Assembly (NCBI RefSeq): GCF_016185115.1
Contig: NZ_JACPOF010000004.1
Location: forward strand, 117,979 to 181,978
DNA length: 64,000 bases
Reading direction: 5' to 3'
Source: Polaromonas sp.
Lineage (GTDB): Bacteria > Pseudomonadota > Gammaproteobacteria > Burkholderiales > Burkholderiaceae_C
Below the pieces are notes generated by a model that saw nothing but the letters and a program-made list of their open reading frames with translations, searched no databases and was not told where the DNA came from. Shown here piece by piece: positions 4,660 through 33,838 of this stretch (positions are counted from its first letter, which is position 1; every line of letters starts with the position of its first letter). The translations under genes were made by a program, and so were the position numbers.

Positions 4660-4710
4660 CGCCCGTATGACGTGAGTCATTTGGATTAAAATTGAGGCAG
4701 ATTAGAAACG

Positions 4711-4745: not shown

Positions 4746-4759
4746 CAGGAGCAGAAAAC

Positions 4760-5236: not shown

Positions 5237-5238
5237 AG

Positions 5239-5685: not shown

Positions 5686-5729
5686 AACGCGTATCCCATG
5701 ACGGATTGGCACGAATTTTAATGCTTCGT

Positions 5730-5910: not shown

Positions 5911-5930
5911 GCCTCTGGGTATCTGAAGGC

Positions 5931-6785: not shown

Positions 6786-6801
6786 GTTGTTGATCAATTC
6801 C

Positions 6802-6839
6802 TGAAATGAAAACGCCCGCAGCTATCGGGGCTACGGGCG
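6802..6839 (-). terminator. Rho-independent terminator of the two-component operon
   Basis: On the minus strand CGCCCGTAGC (6839-6830) pairs with GCTGCGGGCG (6822-6813) around a 7-base loop, followed by TTTTCATTT. It separates the response-regulator gene from folD. Confidence 0.8.
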
Positions 6840-6870
6840 CGTGGCGCTTTAAAAACGGGCAGGCCGTGTG

Positions 6871-7497: not shown

Positions 7498-7529
7498 GCC
7501 AAACTTTCTCTGTGAGTTGCTGAATGAAG

Positions 7530-10088: not shown

Positions 10089-10343
10089 GCCAGCAGTTTA
10101 AGTGAGATGTCTGCTGCAGGGGTGTATCCCCCTCTGGCCTTGAGCATTACGAATTACATTACGCCGCTTTTTAAATTTCTTAATATGAAATCAAAAAGCA
10201 CAATTTGAAATTTGGCAAATATTGTGGGAAACTGGAGACTTGAATCCAAATTGGGTTAAAACTCGTTTGGAGACAAGCTTTGCGCCCGGGCAGGCTGAAG
10301 CCGTAACGGGTTAAACCACAGAGTATTCAAGCAGGAGACAAAC
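10089..10343. promoter_or_regulatory. Divergent promoter region between the kinase gene and aceE
   Basis: A 255-base AT-rich gap holding promoters for both directions. An inverted repeat CACAAT (10199-10204)/ATTGTG (10221-10226) with a 16-base spacer could be an operator, and CAGGAGACAAAC just before 10344 is the aceE ribosome-binding site. I cannot assign the start points of transcription. Confidence 0.45.
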
Positions 10344-13076
10344 ATGGCCGCCAACCCTAGCAATGCAGGTGACAGCCTGAACGCCGCCGCGAACGACGCG
10401 CTGGACAAGGACACCCAGGAAACCCGCGAGTGGATGGACGCGCTGTCCGCCGTCATCGAGAGCGAAGGCCCTGAACGCGCCCACTTCCTGCTCGAACAAC
10501 TCCTGGAACATGCCCGCCAGAAAAGCATAGACATGCCTTTCTCGGCCAACACGGCTTACGTCAACACGATTGAGGCAGACCAGGAAGCACGCGCGCCCGG
10601 CAACCTTGAAATCGAAGGGCGCCTTCGCGCCTACATGCGCTGGAATGCCATGGCCATGGTGGTCAAGGCCAACCGCCTGCACCCTGCCGACGGCGGTGAC
10701 CTTGGCGGCCACATCGGTTCTTTCGCGTCGCTGGCCAGCCTGTTTGGCGCAGGCTTCAACCACTTCTGGCATGCCGAGAGTGAAAACCACGGCGGCGACT
10801 GCCTCTACATACAGGGCCATGTGTCACCAGGCGTTTATGCGCGTGCATACCTTGAAGGCCGGCTGACTGAAGAGCAGTTGCTCAACTTCCGCCAGGAAGT
10901 CGATGGCAAGGGCCTGTCGAGCTACCCACACCCCAAACTCATGCCCGAGTTCTGGCAGTTCCCCACGGTCTCCATGGGTCTCGGCCCGCTGATGGCGATT
11001 TACCAGGCGCGCTTCCTCAAGTACCTGCACGCACGCGGCATTGCCAACACCGAAAACCGCAAGGTCTGGGTGTTCTGCGGCGACGGCGAGATGGACGAAG
11101 TCGAATCCATGGGTGCGATTGGTCTCGCCGCGCGTGAAAAGCTCGACAACCTCGTGTTCGTCATCAACTGCAACCTGCAGCGCCTTGACGGTCCGGTGCG
11201 TGGCAACGGCAAGATCATCCAGGAGCTGGAAGGCGAGTTCCGTGGCGCTGGCTGGAACGTCATCAAACTCATCTGGGGCAGTGGCTGGGACCCCCTGCTG
11301 GCCCGTGACAAGGATGGCATCCTGAAGAAAATCATGATGGACACCCCCGATGGCGACTACCAGGCCATGAAGGCCAATGATGGTGCCTACGTGCGCAAAC
11401 ATTTCTTCGGCCAGCACCCCAAGGCCCTTGAGATGGTAGCGCACATGAGCGATGAGGAAATTTTTGACCTGCGCCGTGGTGGTCACGACTCCAAGAAAGT
11501 CTACGCCGCTTTCCACTCGGCGGTTAACCACAAAGACCAGCCGACGGTGCTCCTGATCAAGACCGTCAAGGGTTTTGGCATGGGCAAGATTGGCGAAGGC
11601 AAAAACAACGTTCACCAGACCAAAAAACTGTCGGACGAGGATATCAAGGCCTTCCGTGACCGCTTCAATGTTCCCATTCCCGACAGCCAGCTGGCCGACA
11701 TTCCGTTTTACAAGCCAGCAGACGACACCCCTGAAATGCAATACCTGCACGAGCGCCGCAAGGCACTCGGGGGTTACCTGCCGCATCGCCGCACCAAGGC
11801 CGATGAAAGCTTCACCGTGCCTGCGCTTGACACCTTCAAGTCGGTGATGGAGCCCACGCCTGAAGGGCGCGAAATTTCGACCACACAGGCCTATGTTCGC
11901 TTTTTGACACAGCTGCTGCGCGACCAGGCCCTGGGCCCGCGCGTCGTGCCCATCCTGGTGGATGAAGCACGTACCTTCGGCATGGAAGGCCTGTTCCGCC
12001 AGATCGGCATCTACAACCCTGCCGGCCAGCAGTACACCCCGGTCGACAAAGACCAGGTCATGTACTACAAGGAAGACACCAAGGGCCAGATCCTGCAGGA
12101 AGGCATCAACGAAGCCGGCGGCATGAGCAGCTGGATTGCCGCTGCCACCAGCTACAGCACCAGCAACCGCATCATGGTGCCGTTTTATGTGTATTACTCG
12201 ATGTTCGGCTTCCAGCGCATTGGCGATCTGGCCTGGGCTGCGGGTGACATGCAGGCGCGCGGCTTCCTGCTGGGCGGCACCTCCGGCCGTACCACGCTCA
12301 ATGGTGAAGGCCTGCAGCATGAAGACGGCCACAGCCACATCCTGGCCAACACCATCCCCAACTGCGTGAGCTACGACCCGACCTTTGCGCACGAAGTCGG
12401 CGTCATCCTGCACCACGGCCTCAAGCGCATGGTCGAGCGCCAGGACAACGTCTTCTACTACCTGACGCTGCTGAACGAAAACTACGCCATGCCCGGCTTG
12501 CAGCCCGGCACCGAAGAGCAGATCATCAAGGGCATGTACCTGTGCAAGCATGGCCCGGCCCTGGCAGCCAAGGCACCCACGGTGCAACTGCTGGGCAGCG
12601 GCACCATCCTCCGCGAAAGCATCGCTGCGCAGGAACTGCTTGAAAAAGACTGGGGTGTTTCAGCAGGCGTCTGGAGCTGCCCGAGCTTCAACGAACTGAC
12701 CCGCGACGGCCAGGACGCCGACCGCTGGAACCTGCTGCACCCGACAGACACGCCACGCGTGCCTTTCGTGACGCAGCAGCTGTCGACAACGACCGGCCCG
12801 GTGGTAGCATCGACAGACTACATGAAGGCATATACGGATCAAATCCGCCCCTTCATACCCAAGGGCCGCACCTACAAAGTATTGGGCACCGACGGGTTTG
12901 GCCGAAGCGACTTCCGCAGCAAGCTGCGCGAGCACTTCGAGATCAACCGCCACTACATCGTACTGGCCGCGTTGAAGGCCCTGAGCGAAGACGGCACGGT
13001 GCCGGTCGCCAGGGTTGCTGAAGCCATCAAGAAATACGGCATACAGACCGACAAGATCAACCCTCTTTACGCTTGA
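10344..13076 (+). CDS. aceE: Pyruvate dehydrogenase E1 component, homodimeric type
   Basis: Decarboxylates pyruvate with thiamine diphosphate and acetylates the lipoyl groups of AceF, feeding the TCA cycle. The 910-residue length is typical of the homodimeric bacterial enzyme. The ThDP motif is clear: GDGEMDE followed by LVFVINCNLQRLDG. HEDGHSH and SLYxTSGRTTL-like transketolase features (LLGGTSGRTTLNGEGLQHED) mark the central domain. The ATG is preceded by CAGGAG. It is the first gene of the aceE-aceF-BPH-lpdA cluster and is divergent from the two-component system. Confidence 0.97.
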   Translation: MAANPSNAGDSLNAAANDALDKDTQETREWMDALSAVIESEGPERAHFLLEQLLEHARQKSIDMPFSANTAYVNTIEADQEARAPGNLEIEGRLRAYMRWNAMAMVVKANRLHPADGGDLGGHIGSFASLASLFGAGFNHFWHAESENHGGDCLYIQGHVSPGVYARAYLEGRLTEEQLLNFRQEVDGKGLSSYPHPKLMPEFWQFPTVSMGLGPLMAIYQARFLKYLHARGIANTENRKVWVFCGDGEMDEVESMGAIGLAAREKLDNLVFVINCNLQRLDGPVRGNGKIIQELEGEFRGAGWNVIKLIWGSGWDPLLARDKDGILKKIMMDTPDGDYQAMKANDGAYVRKHFFGQHPKALEMVAHMSDEEIFDLRRGGHDSKKVYAAFHSAVNHKDQPTVLLIKTVKGFGMGKIGEGKNNVHQTKKLSDEDIKAFRDRFNVPIPDSQLADIPFYKPADDTPEMQYLHERRKALGGYLPHRRTKADESFTVPALDTFKSVMEPTPEGREISTTQAYVRFLTQLLRDQALGPRVVPILVDEARTFGMEGLFRQIGIYNPAGQQYTPVDKDQVMYYKEDTKGQILQEGINEAGGMSSWIAAATSYSTSNRIMVPFYVYYSMFGFQRIGDLAWAAGDMQARGFLLGGTSGRTTLNGEGLQHEDGHSHILANTIPNCVSYDPTFAHEVGVILHHGLKRMVERQDNVFYYLTLLNENYAMPGLQPGTEEQIIKGMYLCKHGPALAAKAPTVQLLGSGTILRESIAAQELLEKDWGVSAGVWSCPSFNELTRDGQDADRWNLLHPTDTPRVPFVTQQLSTTTGPVVASTDYMKAYTDQIRPFIPKGRTYKVLGTDGFGRSDFRSKLREHFEINRHYIVLAALKALSEDGTVPVARVAEAIKKYGIQTDKINPLYA

Positions 13077-18959: not shown

Positions 18960-20015
18960 TCAGCCGTCAAGCAGGCTGAGAGCCCCTGCGCGATGCACGG
19001 CCTCGGCCCGGGTCGAGCAGCCCAGTGCCTTCATGGCGCCTGACATATGCATCTCTACGGTGCGAGGGCTCAGATTGAGGGCTTTGGCCACTTCCTTGTC
19101 TGTACGTCCGTGGGCCACGGCGCGCAGGACTTCGGTTTGTCTCAGGGTGAGTTGGGGTGAAGGGCCGGTCCTGCCCAGAAAGGTGCCGAGTTCAGCCTCA
19201 AAAACCTGCATGGCTGGTTCGGTGGACAGAAGGATGTGGCCCTGAGCCTCCAGCGCCACAAAGCGGGCACCGGGGATCAGCGACGCCATCTTGCGCCCCT
19301 GTTCAAAACCGATCATTTCATCTTTTCGGCAATGAAAAACCAGTGTGGGCACGTTCACTTGCGCGCAGAGATCCCTCACGTTGATGGAGAAATTTTTTCG
19401 CAGGTACGCCGTCGCCATCTCTGCCGTCATGGACAACTGCATGCGTTCTTCCATTTCACGCTGCTGCTCAGGGGTTGCGTTGCCGAGCAACTGGGCTACG
19501 AACAGTTTGCGAAAGATTGACCTGGGGCTGTTCCAGCCTACTTCGGCGCTTTTTATAACCAGCTCAGCCTCATCAATGGCTTTTTGACTGACGTTTGGCG
19601 TGCTGAAAACAGACGTTGCAAAGCCGCTGAGCAGAATCAGGTGAGACACCTGGTCCGGATGGCGCACGGCATAGGCGACTGAAATCGCTGCGCCCATGGA
19701 CATGCCCAGCAACGCAAACTTCTTCACCCCCCTGGACGCTACGACGGCTTCCAGGTCATTGACCGCGTCTTCAAAGGTCAGCGAAGGCACCTTGCGATCC
19801 GAAAGACCGCAGCCTCGCGAGTCGTAACGCACGAAGGAAAAGCCCCGGCTGAGCGCACGTATGTAAGCCTGAGGCTCTTCATGACGGGCATCACAATCAA
19901 GGTGGCTAAGCCAGGTTCCGGCCCGAACCACGGGGAAGCCGGTGCCCGTAGATGTGCTTGCTATCTTCACGCCGTCTGCACTTGTGCAAAAGCGTATGTC
20001 TTGTTGCAGTGTCAT
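18960..20015 (-). CDS. Alpha/beta hydrolase-LuxR fusion transcriptional regulator
   Basis: A 351-residue protein with an alpha/beta-hydrolase domain (about 1-280; nucleophile S106 in LLGMSMGAA, acid in HCRKDEMIG, histidine in EAQGHILLS) fused to a C-terminal LuxR-type HTH (about 285-345; LTLRQTEVLRAVAHGRTDKEVAKALNLSPRTVEMHMS). The hydrolase domain keeps its triad and could act as ligand sensor or as an enzyme controlling DNA binding. It resembles hydrolase-type receptors such as RsbQ in logic only. A DUF2917 gene and another hydrolase lie downstream on the same strand with an inverted repeat between. Confidence 0.88.
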   Translation of the reverse strand: MTLQQDIRFCTSADGVKIASTSTGTGFPVVRAGTWLSHLDCDARHEEPQAYIRALSRGFSFVRYDSRGCGLSDRKVPSLTFEDAVNDLEAVVASRGVKKFALLGMSMGAAISVAYAVRHPDQVSHLILLSGFATSVFSTPNVSQKAIDEAELVIKSAEVGWNSPRSIFRKLFVAQLLGNATPEQQREMEERMQLSMTAEMATAYLRKNFSINVRDLCAQVNVPTLVFHCRKDEMIGFEQGRKMASLIPGARFVALEAQGHILLSTEPAMQVFEAELGTFLGRTGPSPQLTLRQTEVLRAVAHGRTDKEVAKALNLSPRTVEMHMSGAMKALGCSTRAEAVHRAGALSLLDG

Positions 20016-20183: not shown

Positions 20184-20666
20184 GTGGATGTCATTCTTCT
20201 GGATTTGCCCGGCGTCGCCGGAGAGTGCCTGTTGACGGGGTATGAGGACAGGATCGAATGCCTGTCATACAGCCATGCGGTTGCAATGCAGATGACCGGC
20301 GATGTCTCCAGCAAGGAGCGTACATCCGGCAGGCCAAACGTGCAGGACTTCACCCTCTCGAAATACATGGACGGGTCCTCGCCCGTGCTCAACCAGTACT
20401 GCTGTGAGGGCCGGCAGATCGGCGACGGTACGGTCACGGTTGGGCGCAACGAGTCCGGCACGTTCATGCCCTTGATCGTCTATACGCTCAAGGACGTGAT
20501 GATCTCCAGTGTCAGTGCAGCGTCCTCTGGCGGCGACAAGCCTGCAGAGACGATCACGCTCAACTTCACGGCTATCCAGTGGAATTACACAGCGCAGAAA
20601 GCGGATTCGGCGCTGGCAGGTGCGGCCGTCGGCAAGTGGGACATGAAGACCAACAGCCCGGCCTGA
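20184..20666 (+). CDS. hcp: Hcp-family type VI secretion tube protein (orphan)
   Basis: A 160-residue Hcp-like protein, the hexameric ring that builds the inner tube of type VI secretion systems and can carry effectors. Family features include GECLLTGYEDRIECLSYSH at the N terminus, the long loop, DFTLSKYMDGSSPVL and the C-terminal ETITLNFTAIQWNYT. Start is a GTG with AAGGA about 7 bases upstream. No other T6SS gene occurs within the window, so it is an orphan that may work with a distant main cluster. Confidence 0.88.
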   Translation: MDVILLDLPGVAGECLLTGYEDRIECLSYSHAVAMQMTGDVSSKERTSGRPNVQDFTLSKYMDGSSPVLNQYCCEGRQIGDGTVTVGRNESGTFMPLIVYTLKDVMISSVSAASSGGDKPAETITLNFTAIQWNYTAQKADSALAGAAVGKWDMKTNSPA

Positions 20667-20956: not shown

Positions 20957-21718
20957 TCAGGGCCTGACCCCCGGTGCCTCCATCACCATGCCGGTGGCAC
21001 GCGCAGCCAGGTAGACCTCCAGTTCGACCAGTTCACTCGAACCATAAGCAAACAGTTCTGCGCGCACGCCACTCATGCAGTTGCGCAGGCGGCGCTGAAG
21101 CGAGCCCATGGTTTGCCATTCAAGCCTGTACACGGGGTAGCCGTTGGGATGGGCCTGCGGAATGATGCTGCTGCCCAGCCGCCCGCCGGCGTTGCTGTCG
21201 TGGCACTGCGCGCATGAGAGATTGAGCTGGCCCATTCGCTGCATGAAGCGCTGCTCGCCCAGTTGCCTGAAGGGCTCCAGCCGTTTGTCTGCAGCTGGTG
21301 TCATGGGCAGACCGCGTGACTGCAGGGCAATGTAGCTCTCGAGGCTGAGCAGGTCTTGCGACTCAAAGCGCAGCGGGTCGGCCTGCTGGTGTTTCTGGCG
21401 GCAGATGTTGATGCGCTGGCTGAGCGTGACGGGCCGTTTGAGCACTTCGTCGAACGCCGGGTAGCGCGCCGCCACACCCTTCATGGAGCTGGATGCCGCC
21501 GCGTGGCAGGTGACGCAAGCCTTGCCACTCAGGCCCGCCGCTTTTTGCCACAGCGCCTCGCCGTCCTTCACCCACAGCATGCCGGGGTTGAGCGCATCGT
21601 CTTTCTGCATGGCCTGCGTTGAGGCGCCCATGAATTCGGAGCCCTGGCGGCGGGTGTCTGCAGGTTGGGCGAAGGCCGGGTTTGCCAGCGCCAGCAAAAG
21701 GAGGGCAAACCGGATCAT
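20957..21718 (-). CDS. soxA: SoxA, diheme c-type cytochrome subunit
   Basis: Periplasmic subunit of SoxXA, which in sulfur oxidation couples thiosulfate to the SoxY cysteine. The 253 residues show a signal peptide (MIRFALLLLALANPAFA), two heme sites, C68-V-T-C71-H72 and C169-A-Q-C172-H173, and C214 in LRNCMSG, at the place of the cysteine persulfide heme ligand. Start at 21718 puts the signal peptide first; the longer frame upstream only translates an intergenic repeat. Last gene of the iorAB-soxXYZA cluster; a repeat-filled 186-base gap separates it from soxZ. Confidence 0.9.
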   Translation of the reverse strand: MIRFALLLLALANPAFAQPADTRRQGSEFMGASTQAMQKDDALNPGMLWVKDGEALWQKAAGLSGKACVTCHAAASSSMKGVAARYPAFDEVLKRPVTLSQRINICRQKHQQADPLRFESQDLLSLESYIALQSRGLPMTPAADKRLEPFRQLGEQRFMQRMGQLNLSCAQCHDSNAGGRLGSSIIPQAHPNGYPVYRLEWQTMGSLQRRLRNCMSGVRAELFAYGSSELVELEVYLAARATGMVMEAPGVRP

Positions 21719-21748
21719 CGTATTGGCGTCTGTTTCGGAAAGTCTGTC

Positions 21749-21870
21749 ATTGCGGGCTTGACCCGCAATCCATGCACCCGCATTGGAATGCACGCGCCGC
21801 CGGGGATGGATCCCCCCGGGTCGTGGCCCGGGGCAGGCTCCTCAAGTCCGGGATGACAGCCGGGGAGGGG
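21749..21870. repeat. REP-like hairpin repeats between soxZ and soxA
   Basis: ATTGCGGG (21749-21756)/CCCGCAAT (21762-21769) forms a hairpin in the widespread GTCATTGCGGGCTTGACCC style of repeat, and CCCCGGG (21814-21820)/CCCGGGG (21827-21833) a second one, followed by a TCCGGGATGACA motif. The spread of such hairpins inside operons is often linked to mRNA stability (known); here it would separate soxA from soxXYZ. Confidence 0.7.
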
Positions 21871-21904
21871 CGAAGACATGTGGGATGACAGGCGGGCCGC
21901 GTGC

Positions 21905-22228
21905 TCATGCCGTGACGGTGATGGCCACAGTCTCGGTTTGCGTGAAGCCGTTGTCGCCTTCCCAGTTCAGCACAAAGTTGCCGCTTTCCGTGGCCGTGGT
22001 GTAGAAGGCGATGTAGGGGTTGGCCGAAATGGCGGAGAACAGTTCGGCGCTGAAAACCTGCTCGCCGTTGTACTTGCAGGTGAAGGCCTGGATGATGTTG
22101 CGCGGCAGGGTCTTGCCGTTGTCGTCGGGGCGAAAGCCGGTTTCCATGGGGTGACCTATGGTGGCGCGAATCTCTATGATCTCGCCGCGCTTTGCGGTTG
22201 CCGGGATGTTGATGAGGGTGCGTGCCAT
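21905..22228 (-). CDS. soxZ: SoxZ, sulfur carrier complex subunit
   Basis: Partner of SoxY in the SoxYZ carrier. The 107-residue protein begins MARTLINIPATAKRGEIIEIRATIGHPMETG, very typical of SoxZ, and ends in the immunoglobulin-like strands FVLNWEGDNGFTQTETVAITV. No signal peptide; it is expected to be exported together with SoxY by the Tat route. Start at 22228 is chosen by family conservation; upstream in-frame residues come from a repeat. Between soxY and soxZ lies a family 2 repeat of about 80 bases. Confidence 0.93.
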   Translation of the reverse strand: MARTLINIPATAKRGEIIEIRATIGHPMETGFRPDDNGKTLPRNIIQAFTCKYNGEQVFSAELFSAISANPYIAFYTTATESGNFVLNWEGDNGFTQTETVAITVTA

Positions 22229-22247
22229 GTCAATTCCCGAAGAATGC

Positions 22248-22326
22248 GCGCAGCGAAGGGCCGCCCCGAGCAAGCAACGGCCCCCCCGGGGGGCAGAGAA
22301 CTACACGCAGTGAGTGAACGTGGGGG
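22248..22326 (-). repeat. Dispersed GC-rich repeat (family 2), copy inside the sox operon
   Basis: GGGCCGCCCCGAGCAAGCAACGG, CCCCCCCGGGGGGC and CTACACGCAGTGAGTGAACGTGGGGGC match the end of the repeat at 18-102 and 49101-49185. It fills the soxY-soxZ spacer. Orientation given is that of the operon; the repeat itself reads on the plus strand. Confidence 0.75.
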
Positions 22327-22331
22327 CTCAT

Positions 22332-22799
22332 TTATGCTTCCCCTTCTATACATGCGACGACCGTCACGATCACGTCTACCGAATGAGACCAGTAACTGCC
22401 ATCGCTCATCTGCGCCACCGCGACCAGCTTCTGCGTGGCAGCCAGCCGCATGCGGGTCGTCACGCTGGCCTTGCCGGCACGCGGGCCGAGTACAAACCTG
22501 GCGACGTCGCGCTGCGGATTTTTCTCGTTGAAGATGGCAATGCTTTTGACATGGTCTGCAGCCGTCATGGGGCTGGCCACGGTCACAGTGATGGGGACGA
22601 CGTTGCCGTTGTCCACCAGCTCGGCGATGTCGATGTGGACCCTGCCTGCCTTGATGGGCGCGCGCGATGTGTAGTTGGCAATCGCAACTTCCAGGTCGCC
22701 TGCAGCCGCCAGGGCAGGGCGCAGCACCACACTGGCGCCCAGTGCGGCGGCACCGGCCAGTACATAGCGGCGAGTGTGATTTGAAGCTTTGCTGTTCAT
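22332..22799 (-). CDS. soxY: SoxY-like sulfur carrier protein with atypical C terminus
   Basis: A 155-residue SoxY-family protein: twin-arginine-type signal (HTRRYVLAGAAALGASVVL), then the Ig-like SoxY domain (HIDIAELVDNGNVVPITVTVASPMTAADHV). In classical SoxY the chain ends in GGCGG and the cysteine carries the sulfur substrate; here it ends VVACIEGEA, so a single cysteine (C150) is kept but the glycines are not. The gene starts 1 base after the soxX stop and precedes soxZ. Whether C150 still serves as carrier is open. Confidence 0.87.
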   Translation of the reverse strand: MNSKASNHTRRYVLAGAAALGASVVLRPALAAAGDLEVAIANYTSRAPIKAGRVHIDIAELVDNGNVVPITVTVASPMTAADHVKSIAIFNEKNPQRDVARFVLGPRAGKASVTTRMRLAATQKLVAVAQMSDGSYWSHSVDVIVTVVACIEGEA

Positions 22800-22800
22800 G

Positions 22801-23256
22801 TCAATTCTTCAGCGTCCGTAAAAAAGCCAGCACGTCTTCTATCTGCTGTGCATTGAGTATGCTCTGCCCGCGAAATGCCGGGGCTACGCGATTGAAGCCG
22901 TCACTGCGAAGGTAGGCCGGCATGATGCTTTGCGGGTTCAGGCGCGTGGCGTCGACCAGCCGCAGGCGCAACTGGCCTTCAGACCAGCGAGAACCAGCAC
23001 CCGACAGATCGGGTGCCAGGTTGCCCTGAAAGCGCTCTTCAGGAAAGGGGCCGGTGTGGCAGAGCAGGCAAAGCCCTACCTGCCGGTTGGCGACGATGGC
23101 ACGCCCGCGCGCGGCGTCACCGAGCGAAGCTGTAAGGGGTACGGGGATGGTGTCACCGACGATGGCCGGTGAGATGTTTGCAGGCTGCGCCGTGGCTGTC
23201 ATCAGCGGAAGCCAGAAGGCAACCGCAAAAACGGCCAGGCACAACCGCGGCCTCAT
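22801..23256 (-). CDS. soxX: SoxX, monoheme c-type cytochrome subunit
   Basis: Partner of SoxA. The 151-residue protein has a signal peptide ([21 protein letters not shown], cleavage likely after ATA), one heme site, C63-L-L-C66-H67, and M112 in SIMPAYLR as the expected axial ligand. The ATG at 23256 overlaps the stop of the molybdenum hydroxylase gene by 4 bases, giving tight coupling of sox to that gene; a longer upstream frame runs antisense-like through the hydroxylase 3' end and is rejected. Confidence 0.9.
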   Translation of the reverse strand: MRPRLCLAVFAVAFWLPLMTATAQPANISPAIVGDTIPVPLTASLGDAARGRAIVANRQVGLCLLCHTGPFPEERFQGNLAPDLSGAGSRWSEGQLRLRLVDATRLNPQSIMPAYLRSDGFNRVAPAFRGQSILNAQQIEDVLAFLRTLKN

Positions 23257-25439
23257 GCCTTTTTGAGGCTGGTGTTTTTCAGCGGCAGGTCGCGTACGCG
23301 TTTGCCCGTTGCCGCAAAAATGGCATTGAGCACGGCCGGCGCCGCCACGGCAATGGTGGGCTCGCCCACACCGCCCCAGAAGCCGCCTGAAGCAACGATG
23401 ACCGTTTCGACCTTGGGCATTTCGTCCATCTTCATGACCTGATAGGTGTTGAAGTTGGTCTGCTCTATCTTGCCGTCTTTCACCGTGCACTCACCATACA
23501 GCGCAGCCGACAGGCCGTATACAAACGAGCCTTCAACCTGCGCCTCGATCTGCTGCGGATTCACGGCGTAACCGCAGTCGGTCGCTGCCACGATGCGGTG
23601 GATCTTGAGCTTGCCCTCGGGGTTGACGGACACCTCGGCCACCGCAGCAACATAACTGCCGAAGCCCATGGTCTGCGCAATGCCCTGGAAGTGCCCCGCG
23701 GGCAATGGCTTGCCCCAGCCCGCGCGCTCGGCCGCAGCGTTGAGAACGGCCAGATGCTTGGGGTGGTTGGCCATCATCTTGCGGCGCAGGGCCAGCGGGT
23801 CCTGCTTTGTGGCGAGCGCGATTTCGTCCATGAAGGACTCGAGGTAGATCGCGTTCTGGTTCAGGTTCACGCCGCGCCAGAAGCCGGGCGGCACATGCGT
23901 GTTGCGCATGGCGTGGTCTACCAGCAGGTTGGGGAAGGTGTAGCCGATGGAGGCCTCCGGGCCGGGCGCGTTCAGGCCCTGGAAGACGGCAGGGTCCTTG
24001 CCGTTCACGACAGCCTGTGGAATGGCGCTGGCCAGGATGGACTGGCCAGAGATGCGCATGTGCAGTCCGGTGATGTTGCCCTGGTCATCAAGGCCCGCGG
24101 TCATCTTGCACTGGGTGACCGGGTGGTAACGGCCCTGGGTCATGTCTTCTTCACGCGTCCAGATCAGCTTGACGGGCGTGCCTGGCATCTGTTTGGCGAT
24201 GCGCACAGCTTGCGTCACGTAATCGGTAAAACTGCGCCGGCCAAAACCGCCACCAAGGTGCATGCGGTACACATCGCACTGGGTCTGACGCAGTTCGGCC
24301 GCTTCAGAGCATGCCGCCAGAGCAGCCTCTGCGTTCTGGGTCGGCGCCCAGACTTCGCAGCGCTCGGGTGTCCATTTGGCCGTGGCATTCATGGGCTCCA
24401 TGGGCGCATGGTTCTGGAAGGGGTAGGAATACACCGCCTCGATCTTGCGTGCGCTTGACGCGATGGCGGCGCGCGCATCACCGTTTGAATTGCCGACCGC
24501 GCCTTCAGGGGCGTCCAGCCCGGCTTTCAGAATGGCGGCGATGCTTTCGCTGGAGACTTTTTCGCTGGAGCCGTTGTCCCAGACGATGGGCATGGCATCA
24601 AGTGCACTTTTGGCACGCCACCAGGTGTCAGCCACCACGGCTACGGCGGTATCGCCGACGCGCACCACCTTCTTGATACCAGCACGCTTTTCAATGGCGG
24701 ACGCATCAAAACTTTTGAGCTTGCCGCCGAAGACGGGGCATTCCTTGATCGCTGCGTTGAGCATGCCGGGAAGCACGACATCCATGCCGTAGACCTGCTT
24801 GCCCGTGACCTTGTCGGCGGTGTCCAGCCGCGCCAGGCGTTTGCCGGCCAGCTTCCAGTCCTTGACGTCCTTGACCTTGATGGTGGCCACGTCGGGCGGC
24901 GTCAGTTTGCCTGCCGCAACTGCCACTTTGCCGTAGGTCGTCTTGCGGCCGCTAGGCGTGTGGGTGATGACGCCATTGGTCACGGTGCAGTCGGCAGGGG
25001 AGGCCTTCCAGCCGTCGGCTGCAGCCTGCACCAGCATCATCTTTGCAGCTGCGCCGCCCTTGCGCATGTAGTCGTGCGACTGGCGCACGCCACGGCTGCC
25101 CACGGTACCGAAGTCGCCCCAGATGCGTTTGCGTGCCAGGCTCTGGCCCGGCGTCGGGTACTCGGTTTTGACTTTCGCCCAGTTGCAGTCGAGCTCTTCA
25201 GCTACCAGTTGCGCCAGGCCTGTCAGCGTGCCCTGGCCCATTTCAACGCGACCTATGCGGATGATGACGGTTTCATCAGGCTTGACGACGACCCAGGCAT
25301 TGACCTCGGGTGGCATCGCGTCCTGGGCATTGGCAGAGCCTGCAAAAGGGATGTGAAGGGCGACGACCAGGCCTGCGCCTGCCGTGCTGCCGAGGAAACC
25401 GCGGCGCGAGACTTTGGGGGATGACAGAACGGCGCTCAT
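23253..25439 (-). CDS. Xanthine-dehydrogenase-family molybdopterin subunit (IorB-like)
   Basis: A 728-residue molybdenum hydroxylase large subunit of the isoquinoline 1-oxidoreductase beta type. A twin-arginine signal ([18 protein letters not shown]) indicates export. Family motifs include [57 protein letters not shown] and [19 protein letters not shown], whose glutamate is the expected catalytic residue. Members hydroxylate N-heterocycles or aldehydes; the substrate here is unknown. It overlaps the 2Fe-2S subunit and soxX by 4 bases each. Confidence 0.92.
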
Positions 25440-25939
25440 GCGACGCTCCCGTCTGTGTGGGTGATGGCGAGCCCCGCACTCTTGGTACTGCCGCCTTGCG
25501 CCACCGACTTGATGGCGGCGCGAACCCGGTTGTAGCTGCCGCAGCGGCATATGTTGGTGATGCTCTGGTCAATCTGTTCGTCAGTGGGTTTCGGCGTGGT
25601 TTTCAGCAGCGCCGCGGCGGCCATGACCATGCCGCACTGGCAAAAGCCGCATTGCGGAACGTCCAGCGCTACCCAGGCTTTTTGTACCGGGTGCGAGCCA
25701 TTGGGTGAGAGGCCTTCGATGGTGACGACCTTGTCCTTGGCGTCGACCGTTGATGCGGGGCGCACGCAACTGCGGGTGGGCACGCCGTTGATATGCACGG
25801 TGCAGGCACCGCATTGGGCGATGCCGCAGCCGTATTTTGTGCCGGTCAGGCCGAGTTGCTCACGTATCACCCACAGCAGTGGGGTGTCTTCTTCTGCTTC
25901 GTACTGGCGGACTTTTCCGTTGACATTCAGTTGTGCCAT
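25436..25939 (-). CDS. 2Fe-2S subunit of the molybdenum hydroxylase (IorA-like)
   Basis: A 167-residue small subunit with two 2Fe-2S clusters: plant-type C38/C43/C46/C58 and the C-terminal helical-domain cluster C97/C100/C131/C133 (QCGFCQCGM and CRCGSYNRV). It passes electrons from the molybdenum subunit to an acceptor. It has no signal peptide and would be exported with its partner. First gene of the operon, with GAGGAG upstream of the ATG. Downstream cytochromes could be its electron acceptors (inference). Confidence 0.93.
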
Positions 25940-27414: not shown

Positions 27415-29130
27415 ATGAAACATATCGGGTTGTGGTTGAAGTCGAAGGTCTTTTGCAGCCATTTGTGGCTCCTGCTGGCTTTGCATGCAGGCGTGCCTGC
27501 GGTGCGGGCCCAGACCGTCCCGCCCCCGTCTGTCGATCCGGGGCGCCTGCGCGAGCGAATCGATTTGCCGCCCGAAACCGGGCGCCCGCTCGAGCAGCGG
27601 GAGACGGATCTCCCCCAGGGGCGGGGGGTGCCGGAATCGATGAAGTCCATGCGGGTGACCCTGAAAACCATACGCATTGAAGGTGCAACTGCCTTGCCTG
27701 GCGACGTGCTGCAGGTGAAGGCGGACAGCTACATCGGGCGCGAGATTTCCGGTAGTGACATTCTTGAACTGGCATCTTTGCTGACCGCCATGTATCGCAA
27801 TGCGGGGTACATCCTCTCAATGGTTGTCGTGCCGCCCCAGTCGCTGGAGTCCGGCCTGCTGACCCTGAACGTTGTCGAGGGCTATATCGTGCAGGTGACA
27901 GTTCGCGCGGATGAAGGTGTCAGTGAACACGTCAGGGCAAGCCTTGCAGAAGCTGGCGAGAAGATCAGGGCATCGCGCCCGCTCAATGCCGCTGTGCTTG
28001 AGCGCTATTTGCTGATCGCCAACGATTTTCCGGGAATCACGCTGCGCAGTGTGCTGGCACCGTCCCGGGAGCCCGGTGCGGCTGACCTCACCCTGGTCGC
28101 AGCGCTCAACAAGGCAGAGGGTTTTTTATCCTTGGACAAATACGGATCCAGGTATCTGGGGCCGGTACAGCTGACGTTGGGTGCGACGGCAAACCAGGTG
28201 CTGGGCGTCAATGACCAGTGGCGTTTTGTGGCTGCCGGCACCGGTAATTCCGAAATGGCTTATGCCCAGGTTTCGTATGGCCAGGTGCTCAATGCCGAAG
28301 GCCTCAGGCTGACGGCCTCCATTTCCAGCGCACGCACCCGGCCGGGCGATTCGCTCAAGGCGTTTGCCGTCCACGGAATCGCAGACACGCTCTCGCTGGG
28401 CCTGAGTTATCCGCTTCTGAGAACGCGCAACGAAAGCCTGCTTGCGCGTGCGGCCTATGAGCATTCTGATATTCATACGGACATCCTTGGCGCCCGCGTG
28501 GTTGAAGACCGCATCCGGGCCTTGCGGCTTGGCCTGAGCTGGCGTGTGCTGGACCGTCTGGATGGGCAGAACACACTGGAGCTTGATTTCAGCCAGGGCC
28601 TGGGTGGCACGCAGTCGTCGGACCTGCTCAAGAGCCGCGTGGGCGCTGACGGCGTTTTCAGCAAACTCACATTCGACTATGAGCGCTCGCAGCCGCTGGG
28701 TCCCCACAGCTCAATCGTCGCGGGTATAGGGGGGCAATGGTCCAACACGCCGCTGCTCTCGTCAGAGCAGTACGCGCTGGGCGGACGCCGCTTCGGGCGC
28801 GCCTATGAACCTGCCGAACTCACGGGTGAACGCGCGCTTGCATTGCGTGTAGAGCCACGTTACGTGGATGAGATCAACACTGCGGGCCTGCGTTCTTACC
28901 AGCTCTTCGGTTTTTATGACATCGGCAGGGTCTGGAAGCTCGGCACGCCCACACCCGGATTGCCAGCCAGCCCGAGCCTTGCATCGGCGGGGTTTGGGGT
29001 ACGGCTGTTCTTTGTGAAAAACATGTTTGCCGTGATTGAAGCTGCCTGGCCGCTTACCAGGGCGCTGGCCGGCAACCCTGCCGGTGGCAAGGCAGCACGC
29101 CTGCTGGCTTCAGTGGTGCTGAGGTTCTGA
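27415..29130 (+). CDS. Two-partner secretion outer-membrane transporter (TpsB, ShlB/FhaC family)
   Basis: Exports the exoprotein encoded next door across the outer membrane. The 571 residues comprise a signal peptide (cleavage near VRAQ), a Pro-rich N-terminal plug-helix region (RERIDLPPETGRP), two POTRA domains (KTIRIEGATALPGDVL; YILSMVVVPPQSLESGLLTLNVVEGYI) and a C-terminal 16-strand barrel with ALGGRRFGRAYEPAELTGERALALRVE, ending LRF with the C-terminal phenylalanine used as Bam signal. Followed after 40 bases by tpsA. Confidence 0.92.
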   Translation: MKHIGLWLKSKVFCSHLWLLLALHAGVPAVRAQTVPPPSVDPGRLRERIDLPPETGRPLEQRETDLPQGRGVPESMKSMRVTLKTIRIEGATALPGDVLQVKADSYIGREISGSDILELASLLTAMYRNAGYILSMVVVPPQSLESGLLTLNVVEGYIVQVTVRADEGVSEHVRASLAEAGEKIRASRPLNAAVLERYLLIANDFPGITLRSVLAPSREPGAADLTLVAALNKAEGFLSLDKYGSRYLGPVQLTLGATANQVLGVNDQWRFVAAGTGNSEMAYAQVSYGQVLNAEGLRLTASISSARTRPGDSLKAFAVHGIADTLSLGLSYPLLRTRNESLLARAAYEHSDIHTDILGARVVEDRIRALRLGLSWRVLDRLDGQNTLELDFSQGLGGTQSSDLLKSRVGADGVFSKLTFDYERSQPLGPHSSIVAGIGGQWSNTPLLSSEQYALGGRRFGRAYEPAELTGERALALRVEPRYVDEINTAGLRSYQLFGFYDIGRVWKLGTPTPGLPASPSLASAGFGVRLFFVKNMFAVIEAAWPLTRALAGNPAGGKAARLLASVVLRF

Positions 29131-29170
29131 ACCGTCAGCCCGGTGTGCAACGGAATTTGAGAGGTGCCCC

Positions 29171-32100
29171 ATGCATAACGACTCCTGTCTGGCTGTAAAA
29201 CATGGACGAATTTATGGATGTGTTCACGCACACGCTGGTGGACCTGTACGTCAGCAACACGCGCCATGGCGCAATCGGCTTTTCATGCTCAAAGCCTTGC
29301 CTGCAGCAGCAGCGCTGGTGTTCGCGCCGCCGGGGTGGTCCATTGATGGCGCGGCGGGACTGCCGCAAAACGGCACTGTGTTTTCCGGTGCTGCCAGTGG
29401 GTCGGTGTCGGGAAACCAGCTGACCATCAATCAGTCCACCGACCGCGCCGTGATTGACTGGGGATCGTTCAGCATTGATCTGGGAAAGGCTGTGCAGTTT
29501 GTCCAGCCCAATGCCGCTGCCGCGGTGCTTAATCGTGTGGCAGCCGGGCTGAATGCTTCCGCGATCATGGGTAGCTTGTCTGCCAACGGCACCGTGATGC
29601 TGATGAACCCGAACGGCGTGATGTTCGGCGCCAATTCCGTGGTGAACGTGGCCTCGCTCATTGCCACGACGGGCAATATCGATGTCAACCACTTCATCAA
29701 TACTGGCGGCGCACGGATCACAGGCGCTACCGGCAGTATCAACAACAAGGGCACGTTGACAGCCCAGGGGGCGGGTCTGGTGGCGCTGGTCGCGCCTTCG
29801 GTGACCAACCAGGGCAGTATCGTTGCAACGGGAGGAACCATCTCGCTTGCCGGGTCGACCGCTGCCACCGTGTCGCTCAATGCGGGCCTCTATGAGTTTG
29901 TCGTTCCGGCCGGCGCATCGGGCGTGGCCGTGGGCAATGAGGCGGGTGGCAGCCTCAACGGCGCGACCATACTGCTGGGAGTGGGGGACGCCGCGGATCT
30001 GCTGTCCGGTGTGATCAACCTGGAGGGTGTGCAGCAGGCCAGCAATGCCATCAGGGTGAATGCCCATTCGGTCCAATTGAAGTCGGCGTTGCAGGCACCT
30101 GCCGTGACCGGCAGTTCCGCAACCATCAATGTCTCGGGTGCAGGGCGTATCCAGGACGGTGTGAACATCGTCAAATCAGGTGGATCGGTCAACGTCGCCG
30201 CTGGTACTTATGTTCAGCCTGCCACGCTGAAAATTGACAGGAGCCTGACGCTGAGCGGCGCGGGGCAGGGCGCCACCATCATCGACGCGCAGGGCGTGAC
30301 CAACTACGGCATTCAGGTTACCGGCGACAACGTCACGCTGAAGGATTTCACGCTGTATGGCCCGAGTGCCGACGTCGCCTCTTCCTACGGGATCAAGGTG
30401 GCGCCGTCTGGCGGCACCCCGGCACGACTGCACGATTTTTCGATCAGCAATGTGACGATTCGCGGCTCAGGCCGGGCGGAGCTCGACCTCAACGGCGTGG
30501 TCGGCGCGCTGATCGACCATGTGACGGCCGATGGCGCGCCCGTGGGCAATGCCGCAGGCAGCACCGCCGGCGCCGGCATACAGATCACGGACAGCGCAAA
30601 TGTCACGATCAGCAACTCCACCACGCGCAACAACACGTGGGGGGGGCTGGCGCTGTATCAGGCCAACCGTTCCCACGACCAGCAGGTCAACAACATCACG
30701 GTGACGGGCAACAATACCTTCAACGAATTCAACCCGGTCTACCTGCAGGATGAGTCGGCCACCCGCGATTTCGGCACGCTCAGTATTGCCGGCTTTGACC
30801 ATGCGGTGCGCAACGGTTCATCGACCAACAGCAATTTCCAGTACACATGGCTGCAGGCGTCCCGCCAGAGTGCGTTTGACTTTGCGGTCAACCTGGGGTC
30901 TTCGGCATCGAGTTATATCCAGGGCTGGAACGGCGCGCAGACAACGCAGAACTTCCGGGTCGGCACAGGGCACCTGCTGGCTGGCGGTGACCAGGCCATG
31001 GCTATAGGCGCTGCCGTTGGCGCGGCAGGCGCGGGCGCTTCCGTTGATGTGTATGCGGGGACTTACGCAGAGCAACTGGTGCTCAACAAGACCGGGCTCA
31101 CACTGACCGGGCATGAAGGGGCCAAACTGCTTGTGCCGGATGCTGCAGAAGTCAACGGGATCGCCGTCGCTGCCAACAACGTAACCGTCACGGGCATGGA
31201 GATCGCCGGGCCGGTGACCCAGTCTTACCTCACCTATGCATGGGGCAACAACCGCAGCCGGGGCATTGCTGTGGGTAACGGCATCACCGGATTCACACTC
31301 AGCAACAACAACATACATGATGTGCGCAACGGCATCCTGATCGATGGCCGCAATACCGGCAGCGTGACGGGTAACCGCATCGAAAACACCAAGAGCGCCA
31401 TATCCGTGCAATACACCGACGGCACTGGCATCGCCATGTCGGGGAATACCCAGGGCCCCATCGGCAACGAGTGGGGGTTGAACCTGCACCTGAACGGGCA
31501 CATGGCTGGATCTAACCCTGACCCTGTCTCGAACAGCACGCCCATAGCCGCTGCGCCCACATTGGCATGGCAGCAGGCCTTGCTGGCGCTGTCGTCTGCC
31601 AACAGTGGCTGGGGAGTACAGGATCAGGGCTATACGTCGTCAAACCGCACGCAGGCCAATGTGGCCACGACAGGGGCGGGTAACAACCAGGGCAGCCTGC
31701 TGACGCCGCTGGACACCATACAAGGCGGTATCGATGCCGTGGTAACGGGCGGTGTAGTGCGCGTGGCCGGCGGCACCTACATCCAGCCAGCCACCCTGAC
31801 GATCAACAAAAGCCTGACGCTCTCGGGGGCCGGGCAGGATGCTACCGTCATCGACGCTCGCGCCATCCTCAACAACTATGGCATCAAGGTGAGTGCTGAC
31901 AATGTCTCGCTGAAAGGGTTCACGCTCTATGGCCCTTCAGCCAATGTCGCGGCATCCTACGGTATCAAGGTGGCGCCGGTGGGCGACGCGTCGGCAAGAC
32001 TGCACAACTTCTCCATCAGCAATGTCACCAGCCGGGGCGCCGGGCGGGCCGAACTGGATCTCAATGGCGTGGATGGTGCCGTCATAGACCACGTAATAGC

Positions 32101-33838
32101 CAACGGCGCGCCAGTCGGCAATGACGCGGGCAGTACCGCGGGTGCTGGCATACAGATCACGGACAGCGCAAATGTCACGATCAGCAACTCGACCACGCGC
32201 AACAACATTTGGGGCGGCCTGGCGCTATACCAGTCCAACCGCTACTACAACCAGCAGACCGGCAACATCACGGTGGCGGCAAACAACCAGTTCACCGAAC
32301 TGAACCCCGTCTTCATGCAGGATGAGTCGGTCAGCCAGAATTTCGGCGCATTCAATATTTCCGGTTTTGACTTTGCAGTGCGCAATTCCGCCCTGACCGA
32401 CAACAACGACCAGTACACGTGGCTGCAGGCTTCCCGACAGCAGGCCATTGATTACGCCGTCAACCTGAACAGCGCTGGGTCAAGTTATGTGCAGGGCTGG
32501 AACGGGGCGTTACCCACGCAGGATTTCCAGGTTGGTGTGGGTAGCCTGGCCGGTGGCGGCACGCGTGCCCTGCTTGTTGCCGCTGCGCTTGACCATGCGG
32601 GTGCCGGTGCCAGCATTCGCATCGCCGCGGGCACTTATGCGGAGAATGTGGTGGTCAACAATCCCTATAACCTTTACTTCAACGGCTCCACCGTTCACGG
32701 CCTGACGCTCAATGCAGGTGCCGCCGGCAGTGGGCTTGCCGGCGCTGTTACAGCAGATACCGCTTCAGGCATCTTGCTGAACGCCCCCATCCGCCTTCTG
32801 GGTGACACCACGCTGGCGACCCTGGGTGCCGACATCACGCTCAACGGGGATATCCAGAACGTCGGCGCCACGGCTTACGGGCTTCGCCTGATCGCCGGCA
32901 CGGGCGGCACCCGGGGTAATGTCCATATGGTGACCGGTGGCACGGCCGCCAATGCGCTGGGCAGCTTTGAAGTCTCGTCCAACCAGTTCAGCCTGCTTGA
33001 TACCCTGTGGGTCAAGGGCTACAAAATCGATGCCCTGGGCAGCGTGGCACTGAGCAACCACACCTTGCGCGGGCAGGATTCCTCTGCGGCCAACACCCTG
33101 AATGCGGGCGGCGACATCACCGGCGCGACCGTCAGCCAGGGCAGCGTGGTCATCACCAGCAGCGGCAACATTGCCGCCAATGTCACGGCAAGCGATGTTG
33201 CCATCAGCGCCGGCGGTGACATCTCGGGCACCACCAACAGCCTGGGCGCCGTGCAGATGACCAGTGGTGGGGACATATCCGGCAGCGTTTCGGGCAGTAC
33301 GGTAGTGGTGCAGGCACAGGGCGACCTGAACCTCGCCGTGGTGGCATCCAGCTCGGCATCCCTGGCGGGTGATACGGTTGTGGTCAATGTTGTTGCGCCT
33401 GTCGTTGCTGTGGCGGCGGTGGGTGATGCGCAGGTGTCAGGCTCGTCGTCGCAGATGACCGTCAATGCACCCAGCGGCAGTGTCAGGGGCAGCTTCGGTC
33501 AGGTGACCAACTCGGGAGGTGGCCTCGTCAATGTCAATGGCAAACCCCAGGGCAACGCGCAACTCTCGTCGAATTCCGACAACAGCCGCGTCATGCCCGC
33601 CGGCAATGCGCTGGCAGATAACGCAGGGGGTGACGAAATTCAGGGTGTTCAGCTGGCACAGGCTGGCGTCCTGATGTCGCAATCCGATGGCGGCGGCATC
33701 ATCCTGATGTCGCCCGGCGCTGCGGGCGAGGCCTTGAGCAACGGACAGTCTGTGGAGCTTGATCTGTCGCCGCGCAATTCACCGGCCGAATCGTCGTCTG
33801 GCAAGTCTTCAGGCGAAAAGGAGTCCGACCGGGAGTAG
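29171..33838 (+). CDS. TpsA exoprotein, filamentous-haemagglutinin/HMW-like adhesin
   Basis: A 1555-residue secreted beta-helix protein. After an extended N-terminal targeting region (hydrophobic core at MLKALPAAAALVF) comes the TPS secretion domain (about 60-300) with the hallmark NPNGVMFG and FVQPNAAAAVLNRV. The body is parallel beta-helix with two copies of a roughly 305-residue unit (about 335-640 and 857-1160). The C-terminal third is Ser/Gly/Asp-rich filament repeat. No toxin domain is evident, pointing to an adhesin. Start is the first ATG after GAGG; an internal ATG at 29285 is an alternative. Confidence 0.9.
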   Translation: MHNDSCLAVKHGRIYGCVHAHAGGPVRQQHAPWRNRLFMLKALPAAAALVFAPPGWSIDGAAGLPQNGTVFSGAASGSVSGNQLTINQSTDRAVIDWGSFSIDLGKAVQFVQPNAAAAVLNRVAAGLNASAIMGSLSANGTVMLMNPNGVMFGANSVVNVASLIATTGNIDVNHFINTGGARITGATGSINNKGTLTAQGAGLVALVAPSVTNQGSIVATGGTISLAGSTAATVSLNAGLYEFVVPAGASGVAVGNEAGGSLNGATILLGVGDAADLLSGVINLEGVQQASNAIRVNAHSVQLKSALQAPAVTGSSATINVSGAGRIQDGVNIVKSGGSVNVAAGTYVQPATLKIDRSLTLSGAGQGATIIDAQGVTNYGIQVTGDNVTLKDFTLYGPSADVASSYGIKVAPSGGTPARLHDFSISNVTIRGSGRAELDLNGVVGALIDHVTADGAPVGNAAGSTAGAGIQITDSANVTISNSTTRNNTWGGLALYQANRSHDQQVNNITVTGNNTFNEFNPVYLQDESATRDFGTLSIAGFDHAVRNGSSTNSNFQYTWLQASRQSAFDFAVNLGSSASSYIQGWNGAQTTQNFRVGTGHLLAGGDQAMAIGAAVGAAGAGASVDVYAGTYAEQLVLNKTGLTLTGHEGAKLLVPDAAEVNGIAVAANNVTVTGMEIAGPVTQSYLTYAWGNNRSRGIAVGNGITGFTLSNNNIHDVRNGILIDGRNTGSVTGNRIENTKSAISVQYTDGTGIAMSGNTQGPIGNEWGLNLHLNGHMAGSNPDPVSNSTPIAAAPTLAWQQALLALSSANSGWGVQDQGYTSSNRTQANVATTGAGNNQGSLLTPLDTIQGGIDAVVTGGVVRVAGGTYIQPATLTINKSLTLSGAGQDATVIDARAILNNYGIKVSADNVSLKGFTLYGPSANVAASYGIKVAPVGDASARLHNFSISNVTSRGAGRAELDLNGVDGAVIDHVIANGAPVGNDAGSTAGAGIQITDSANVTISNSTTRNNIWGGLALYQSNRYYNQQTGNITVAANNQFTELNPVFMQDESVSQNFGAFNISGFDFAVRNSALTDNNDQYTWLQASRQQAIDYAVNLNSAGSSYVQGWNGALPTQDFQVGVGSLAGGGTRALLVAAALDHAGAGASIRIAAGTYAENVVVNNPYNLYFNGSTVHGLTLNAGAAGSGLAGAVTADTASGILLNAPIRLLGDTTLATLGADITLNGDIQNVGATAYGLRLIAGTGGTRGNVHMVTGGTAANALGSFEVSSNQFSLLDTLWVKGYKIDALGSVALSNHTLRGQDSSAANTLNAGGDITGATVSQGSVVITSSGNIAANVTASDVAISAGGDISGTTNSLGAVQMTSGGDISGSVSGSTVVVQAQGDLNLAVVASSSASLAGDTVVVNVVAPVVAVAAVGDAQVSGSSSQMTVNAPSGSVRGSFGQVTNSGGGLVNVNGKPQGNAQLSSNSDNSRVMPAGNALADNAGGDEIQGVQLAQAGVLMSQSDGGGIILMSPGAAGEALSNGQSVELDLSPRNSPAESSSGKSSGEKESDRE
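30173..31090 (+). repeat. Internal duplication in tpsA, unit 1
   Basis: Encodes GGSVNVAAGTYVQPATLKID through ASVDVYAGTYAEQLVLN. A 44-base stretch (30575-30618) is identical to 32147-32190 in unit 2, an offset of 1572 bases, and protein identity remains high along the unit. Confidence 0.85.
31739..32650 (+). repeat. Internal duplication in tpsA, unit 2
   Basis: Encodes GGVVRVAGGTYIQPATLTIN through ASIRIAAGTYAENVVVN, parallel to unit 1. The spacer between the units (31091-31738) is a different beta-helix segment followed by a Gly/Asn-rich turn. Confidence 0.85.

Follow-up and report, generated by a model that had tools for sequence, protein, structure and literature searches.

The window, a stretch of 64,000 nucleotides from a Polaromonas sp. 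genome (G000, contig C31, positions 117979-181978), carries on its minus strand a run of six genes in which a two-subunit molybdenum hydroxylase precedes four sox genes. The first gene encodes the [2Fe-2S] subunit (hereafter FeS; 25436..25939), with Pfam Fer2_2 (5.4e-27) and Fer2 (1.4e-8) domains. The second encodes the molybdopterin-binding large subunit (hereafter MoL; 23253..25439), a member of the xanthine dehydrogenase family with a twin-arginine translocation (Tat) signal and Pfam MoCoBD_1/2 matches. These are followed by SoxX, a monoheme c-type cytochrome (22801..23256; TIGR04485, 78 bits, cut-off 61), and a SoxY variant with an altered arm and a twin-arginine N-terminus (hereafter SoxY*; 22332..22799; TIGR04487, 200.7 bits, cut-off 172). 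SoxZ (21905..22228; TIGR04490, 90.7 bits, cut-off 76) and SoxA, a diheme c-type cytochrome with both distal cysteines (20957..21718; TIGR04484, 228.8 bits, cut-off 110), complete the set. Neither SoxB nor SoxCD is encoded at the locus.

Open reading frames, Pfam and NCBIfam bear out the gene order and coordinates given in an earlier sequence-only reading of this DNA, and MoL does start with the twin-arginine signal that it assigned to the hydroxylase. The 4-base overlaps it described among the first three genes are also there: the FeS/MoL and MoL/SoxX junctions both read ATGA, with the SoxX ATG inside the MoL stop overlap. One base separates SoxX from SoxY*, 103 bases separate SoxY* from SoxZ, and 186 bases separate SoxZ from SoxA (counted from the ATG at 21718). 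Both wide gaps (22229-22331 and 21719-21904) contain GC-rich palindromic sequence resembling dispersed repeats; a piece of each, searched at up to 3 mismatches, is single copy within the window. Across the gene set, a promoter consensus scan was at chance (1 observed, 0.8 expected) and a terminator scan was uninformative (9 observed, 5.7 expected, standard deviation 3.1).

The lack of soxB and soxCD noted in the sequence-only reading is true of the locus and false of the genome. SoxB (C31:31752-33431, 867 bits) and SoxC (C31:26559-27803, 580 bits) lie on the same contig in one canonical cluster (L138), which rules out an organism without SoxB/SoxCD. The cluster spans roughly C31:26.5-33.5 kb, about 105 kb from the window set at about 138.9-143.9 kb, and runs from an ArsR-type-like frame through SoxC, a frame with two CxxCH motifs that by its position is putatively SoxD, SoxY with a GGCGG end, SoxZ, SoxA and SoxX to SoxB. 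The same reading had allowed for a complete sox cluster elsewhere that uses the window's subunits; a cluster exists, and with a SoxXYZA of its own it does not depend on them. For that reason the window set is a parallel second set and not a truncated Sox system.

This second set recurs well beyond the window. We fetched 139 loci around SoxY-variant matches and counted genes within 7 kb of SoxY; 60 loci came from a scan of named genomes for SoxY* and 79 from an order sample of 399 genomes, the match of genome G482 being left out. The two collections overlap partly (the MoLs of L108 and L123 are identical), and pooled counts are not independent. All six genes occur together, mostly in the same order, in 86 of 139 loci (38/79 in the order sample, 48/60 in named genomes). 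The association is thus beyond chance, and the hydroxylase plus soxXYZA, a grouping the sequence-only reading had proposed to check in related genomes, is a conserved set rather than a local accident. A unique or accidental arrangement is ruled out by this recurrence, and with it the concern that the overlapping organisation belongs to a single strain. Exact 4-base overlaps are common, not universal: they occur at 31/113 FeS/MoL, 10/91 MoL/SoxX (a count that includes loci with genes in between), 38/105 SoxX/SoxY and 68/102 SoxZ/SoxA junctions.

The set is found in Burkholderiales and Alphaproteobacteria, in genera that include Polaromonas, Ramlibacter, Noviherbaspirillum, Polynucleobacter, Bradyrhizobium, Tardiphaga, Microvirga and Methylobacterium. 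Among the 399 order-sample genomes, TIGR04487 finds a match at E <= 1e-22 in 72, of which 25 exceed the cut-off, and in a class sample 1 of 274 genomes passes the cut-off, namely the window's own. The named loci comprise 26 with the six genes plus a sulfide-dehydrogenase-type flavoprotein, 22 with the six genes without it, and 12 others: seven cut by contig ends (L062, L070, L086, L088, L095, L103, L105), one with no SoxY frame of its own (L112), one without MoL (L111), one without SoxXA (L108) and two canonical GGCGG types (L119, L120). Among the 38 full sets of the order sample, two include the flavoprotein and three (L173, L174, L177) have FeS-MoL divergently oriented. A further three of the 79 loci are cut at the SoxA end, four are canonical or other types (L139, L170, L178, L180), and eight hold SoxXY*ZA without MoL within 7 kb, two of these near SoxC and one (L161) cut right before SoxX. 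SoxB lies within 7 kb of SoxY in two order-sample loci (L178, L180) and one named locus (L119), all three with a GGCGG arm; SoxC does so in two order-sample loci, both without MoL, and in one named locus, which is canonical.

Clustering of neighbouring genes returned no other frequent partner except TctC receptors near 15 loci, which we took as background, and opposite-strand frames, which we took as shadows of known genes. In two loci with SoxXY*ZA and no MoL (L131, L133), the opposite strand carries a SoxC-type gene some 3.5-5 kb past SoxA. Two others, L139 in a same-family genome and L211 on Sinorhizobium meliloti pSymA, combine SoxYZ, a cytochrome and an oxidoreductase of the sulfide-dehydrogenase or FAD-dependent type, with no SoxXA or SoxB in view.

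The most distinctive feature of the sox half is the carrier arm. SoxY* ends in VTVVACIEGEA, canonical SoxY in GGCGG. Against the canonical SoxY model (TIGR04488) SoxY* scores 93.1 bits and fails the cut-off of 125; SoxY* (51.2 bits) and SoxZ (43.7 bits), which are separate genes, also miss the 140-bit cut-off of TIGR04557. With the canonical and other loci L119, L120, L138, L139, L170, L178 and L180 left out, 132 of the 133 remaining loci gave a SoxY (L112 gave none). The arm cysteine is present in all 132, GG precedes it in 1/132, an acidic residue stands two positions after it in 115/132, and the arm mostly reads x-A-C-x-acid. In a SoxY tree built without the arm columns (82 rows), arm type changes 5 times, compared with 26.4 when shuffled, on few columns and with 31 forks open. 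In this tree the altered arm goes with the MoL-linked SoxY lineage, and it fits the earlier suggestion that a sulfur-carrying SoxYZ here serves another chemistry.

Both cytochromes keep their cofactor residues. In SoxX, the CxxCH motif and Met109 are present in 106/106 relatives aligned; in SoxA, both CxxCH motifs and Cys214 are kept in 102/102 and Cys106 in 101/102. SoxA aligns to chain A of 1h31, Rhodovulum SoxA (E 1.1e-44), with cysteines at matching positions that are presumably heme ligands. As far as sequence can tell, SoxXA with heme cysteines for sulfur ligation, a trait of canonical Sox, is retained.

MoL, judged by sequence and predicted structure, is most like a cytochrome-linked aldehyde dehydrogenase, with the Mo-binding domains, the conserved Glu and the 8gy3 fold. 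Its nearest solved chain is 8gy3_C (sequence E 2e-79, profile 6.5e-129), and the sequence match to the 8gy3 large subunit covers residues 8-725 of 728. An AlphaFold model (mean predicted local distance difference test score 85.3) superposes on 8gy3 with a template modelling (TM) score of 0.87, the next structure being 5g5g (TM 0.62). The sequence-only reading had suggested a sulfur- or heterocycle-oxidising system; either kind of substrate may apply, the best structural match being an aldehyde dehydrogenase. 8gy3 is the aldehyde dehydrogenase of Gluconobacter oxydans, whose membrane-bound enzyme passes electrons to cytochrome c. Unlike that enzyme, the window locus has SoxXA and SoxYZ, and no gene for a multiheme cytochrome subunit of the aldehyde-dehydrogenase type was seen in it. 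Key residues are conserved in both hydroxylase subunits: in MoL the twin arginines (114/114 relatives), Gln69 (115/115) and Glu693 within GEP (116/116 with a residue there), presumably the catalytic Glu of the family, and in FeS cysteines 38, 43, 46, 58, 97, 100, 131 and 133 (112-113 of 113 relatives aligned). In a MoL tree made by a quick method, with the three IorB-type paralogues of the window genome as its only outgroup and the orphan MoLs described below left out, the SoxY*-linked MoLs form one group (SH-aLRT, an approximate likelihood-ratio test, 99) apart from these paralogues. The MoL of L137 sits on a long branch outside the group.

Many sets include a further enzyme. The flavoprotein (Pfam FCSD_central and FCSD-flav_bind) occurs in 26 named loci, directly before SoxX in 25 and after SoxA in L117. 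By record title the 25 are all alphaproteobacterial except L101; the alphaproteobacterial loci L100 and L111 are without the flavoprotein. In a coarse test, 17 loci show a CxxCH frame that separates MoL from the flavoprotein, and several Bradyrhizobium loci show none there. A Methylobacterium plasmid carries the cytochrome, the flavoprotein and the six genes; on a Neorhizobium galegae plasmid FeS, the flavoprotein and four sox names are annotated, and MoL, which has no annotation there, is present in two frames. L117 (Alcaligenaceae; 1982-11067) has two FeS-MoL pairs in tandem before SoxXYZA. The contig of L101 is labelled Candidatus Marinimicrobia, and its MoL groups with proteobacterial MoLs, possibly through a binning error or transfer.

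For this conserved set, with its intact cofactor residues, its altered arm and no SoxB or SoxCD, our preferred reading, at a probability of roughly 0.4, is that it forms a dedicated periplasmic system of the Sox kind, additional to the canonical one: SoxXA would load SoxY*, and MoL would oxidise the group borne on the arm. SoxXA would oxidatively couple a small sulfur compound to the arm cysteine, and the cargo would most likely be an organic thiol or another thiol-reactive organic molecule. We prefer an organic or organosulfur cargo because the molybdenum family attacks carbon, its known enzymes acting on C-H bonds of free small molecules, and because MoL folds most like an aldehyde dehydrogenase; the membership of SoxXA and the flavoprotein in the set hints at sulfur in the cargo. 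The redesigned arm may keep the adduct from canonical SoxB/SoxCD and present it to MoL, which would oxidise the carried group at the Mo centre with water as the oxygen donor. The two [2Fe-2S] clusters would relay the electrons to a c-type cytochrome, either SoxX/A or a different one. The carbon moiety would be released in oxidised form and the sulfur as sulfide or persulfide, to be taken by the co-encoded flavocytochrome-c-type sulfide dehydrogenase in most alphaproteobacterial versions and elsewhere perhaps by canonical Sox where present.

The same parts could instead serve inorganic sulfur. Here MoL-FeS would replace SoxCD and make SoxB unneeded: thiosulfate or sulfide would be loaded by SoxXA or the flavoprotein, and the sulfane sulfur on SoxY* oxidised to a released sulfonate or sulfite. 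SoxXA and, in most alphaproteobacterial loci, the flavoprotein are part of the set, whereas neither SoxB nor SoxC belongs to it, and neither was detected in 16 of the 72 SoxY* genomes, most genomes being drafts. Yet SoxC is matched at E <= 1e-60 in 43 of the 72, in 40 of them above its cut-off, so the substitute would be redundant there; the nearest MoL fold is that of an aldehyde dehydrogenase, and no enzyme of the xanthine dehydrogenase family is known to oxidise sulfur. We regard this inorganic variant as rather unlikely.

The co-occurrence of MoL and SoxY* counts in favour of the preferred reading. We searched the 399 order-sample genomes for MoL, scoring the two best candidates per genome. 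With a line at 830 bits, chosen post hoc where the list of scores had a gap, 45 of 45 genomes whose best match reaches the line are among the 72 SoxY*-positive ones, compared with 21 of 27 at 660-800 bits and 0 of 16 for lower listed matches. The resulting P = 7e-41 overstates the association, related genomes not being independent. SoxB is commoner with SoxY* than without it (53/72 and 132/327). That neither SoxB nor SoxC was detected in 16 of the 72 also speaks for the preferred reading. Two of the 16 low-scoring genomes (L250, L251) have a SoxY-like protein with the arm SACYDGT, below the SoxY* threshold, together with SoxZ and SoxA beside MoL, and show that the family is wider than counted. 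Conversely, MoL went unmatched at the threshold in six of the 72 (G512, G571, G224, G482, G639, G653). G512 and G571 have the canonical GGCGG arm, and G224 has the arm SGCGM beside a flavoprotein; the 72 therefore include a few genomes that are not the variant. In G639 MoL is split over two frames beside SoxY*.

Several observations weigh against the preferred reading of a dedicated SoxY*-MoL system. A protein-bound substrate would be unusual for an enzyme whose family acts on free small molecules. SoxB is present in 53 of the 72 SoxY* genomes, so in most of them the system may not be independent of canonical Sox; in G625, which has a full set, canonical SoxB lies only about 13 kb away. G653 carries SoxXY*ZA without any MoL match, which makes it a genuine exception if its draft is complete. 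In six genomes whose MoL scores 669-757 bits, no SoxY* was found at E <= 1e-22.

FeS-MoL pairs also occur apart from soxYZ, which weakens strict coupling and rules out that MoL always needs linked SoxYZ. Sixteen regions (L228-L243), picked for having MoL at a distance from the SoxY* match, contain FeS-MoL but lack soxYZ over the sequence fetched, and their genomes have SoxY* elsewhere; their MoLs are 55-67% identical to that of the window. One of them, L243 on a short contig, is probably the other half, with L161, of a set split between contigs. Among the weaker-MoL regions L244-L257, some of them cut, 12 of 14 are without soxYZ. The pairs L228-L243 raise the possibility that several hydroxylases share one carrier.

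Other exceptions concern SoxXA: 26 of the 79 order-sample loci hold FeS-MoL-SoxY*-SoxZ without it (FeS is cut off in L121, and the contig ends soon after SoxZ in L175). SoxA was found elsewhere in 25 of the 25 such genomes searched, and the 26th, G414, has SoxA in two other loci; we set aside the idea that SoxXA is dispensable because some loci are without it. Fourteen of the 16 SoxA regions fetched look canonical-type, three with SoxB beside, the call being made where SoxZ (and SoxY where resolved, which it was not in L213) is closer to the window genome's canonical proteins than to the variants. Of the other two, L223 holds a variant-type SoxXA pair, and L224, which starts where its contig starts, holds SoxZ, SoxA and SoxX of canonical type. 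Where SoxXA is missing from a locus, it may work in trans or play no part. In the MoL tree one class of such loci (B2, 18 rows) forms one group with support 100, and another (B1, 5 rows, support 99) is nested among full sets; SoxXA was thus probably lost or moved in class B1.

The separated parts also bear on two alternatives. One casts SoxYZ* as a periplasmic sulfane donor, charged by SoxXA or the flavoprotein, that restores the Mo sulfido ligand of exported hydroxylases and is not a substrate carrier. Members of the family carry an equatorial sulfur ligand on Mo (PMC2997495), and upkeep of this ligand would explain the orphan MoL pairs, the 45/45 co-occurrence and the loci with only MoL and SoxYZ. 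On the other hand, the three IorB-type paralogues of the window genome have no SoxYZ in flanks of roughly 1.5 kb, and a whole sulfur-oxidising set seems excessive for upkeep. Sulfuration of the Mo centre, moreover, normally precedes export. We consider this explanation unlikely.

The other supposes no contact at all: an aldehyde or heterocycle dehydrogenase of the usual kind would simply be expressed along with an auxiliary set for sulfur oxidation. FeS-MoL pairs and SoxXY*ZA sets do occur separately, and the six genomes with mid-range MoL and no SoxY* fit. However, the set is kept across two Proteobacteria groups, its split or divergent parts mostly remain in the same genome, and the altered arm tracks the MoL-linked SoxY lineage. 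Of the explanations weighed, co-regulation alone strikes us as the least probable.

Altered SoxY arms have been noted in other settings. PMC11237559 describes them near DMSO (dimethyl sulfoxide) reductase, tetrathionate reductase and alcohol, methanol or formate dehydrogenase genes, and proposes roles outside thiosulfate oxidation. The TIGR04557 quinoprotein-dehydrogenase-associated carriers and the symbiont SoxYZ treated there resemble the window set in placing an altered-arm SoxYZ beside a non-Sox periplasmic dehydrogenase. Those carriers are fused SoxYZ proteins found with PQQ (pyrroloquinoline quinone), methanol or formate dehydrogenases and SoxH, whereas the window SoxYZ is unfused and accompanied by SoxXA and a Mo hydroxylase. 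According to PMC12997753, the ped cluster of Pseudomonas likewise encodes a SoxYZ-like protein that is fused. The main text of PMC11237559 has no word starting with "molybd" or "xanthine".

A further alternative is a carrier for something other than sulfur: the arm thiol would trap an aldehyde or another electrophile as a hemithioacetal, MoL would oxidise it, and SoxXA would reset the thiol. The aldehyde-dehydrogenase fold of MoL agrees with this, as does the role in carbon metabolism that PMC11237559 proposes for divergent SoxYZ near alcohol, methanol and formate dehydrogenases. The intact distal cysteines of SoxA and the sulfide-dehydrogenase-type flavoprotein point instead to sulfur. To our knowledge, aldehyde oxidation in known relatives needs no thiol carrier. 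We judge a non-sulfur carrier improbable.

Relative to canonical Sox of the Paracoccus type (SoxXA-YZ-B-CD), the window set shares SoxXA, SoxZ and a SoxY with a carrier cysteine; it differs in having no SoxB/SoxCD, a replaced GGCGG arm and an added Mo hydroxylase. Its SoxY* passes TIGR04487, the "SoxY-related AACIE arm protein", a name that NCBI also gives on the Methylobacterium plasmid with the same set. That model names one protein, and the Methylobacterium neighbours are annotated separately and generically. A search of the open literature, with most subscription journals outside it and absence therefore weak, found no description of a Mo hydroxylase-SoxXYZA set. The parts are individually annotated in NCBI names, and the system is apparently undescribed. 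Taken a step further, and more tentatively than the dedicated system itself, the set may represent a third Sox branch, in which SoxXA and a re-armed SoxYZ hand protein-bound organosulfur or organic adducts to molybdenum hydroxylases, possibly several in one cell that share the carrier. Such a branch would amount to a path for oxidising sulfur or organosulfur in the periplasm that is common in Burkholderiales and Alphaproteobacteria and has gone unrecognised.

The presence of soxX, soxY, soxZ and soxA is usually taken as a sign of thiosulfate oxidation, and gene surveys may miscount sulfur oxidisers because this set has all four with a different arm and redox enzyme. If the coupling is true, SoxYZ would serve a class of enzyme new to it, and molybdenum hydroxylases would have a substrate that is bound to a protein. 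Carriers of the set include Polaromonas sp. JS666 and single-contig genomes of 1.7-2.1 Mb, which makes the question of its substrate testable.

Genes of other kinds surround the set in the window. Past the 3' end of SoxA, on the opposite strand, lies a lone Hcp (type VI secretion) gene (20184-20666, plus strand), and beyond it an alpha/beta hydrolase fused to a LuxR-type DNA-binding domain (18960-20015, minus strand). On the other side is a two-partner secretion (TPS) pair (27415-33838, plus strand), formed by an ShlB/FhaC-type transporter (27415-29130) and a TPS-domain exoprotein of 1555 amino acids with beta-helix matches (29171-33838).

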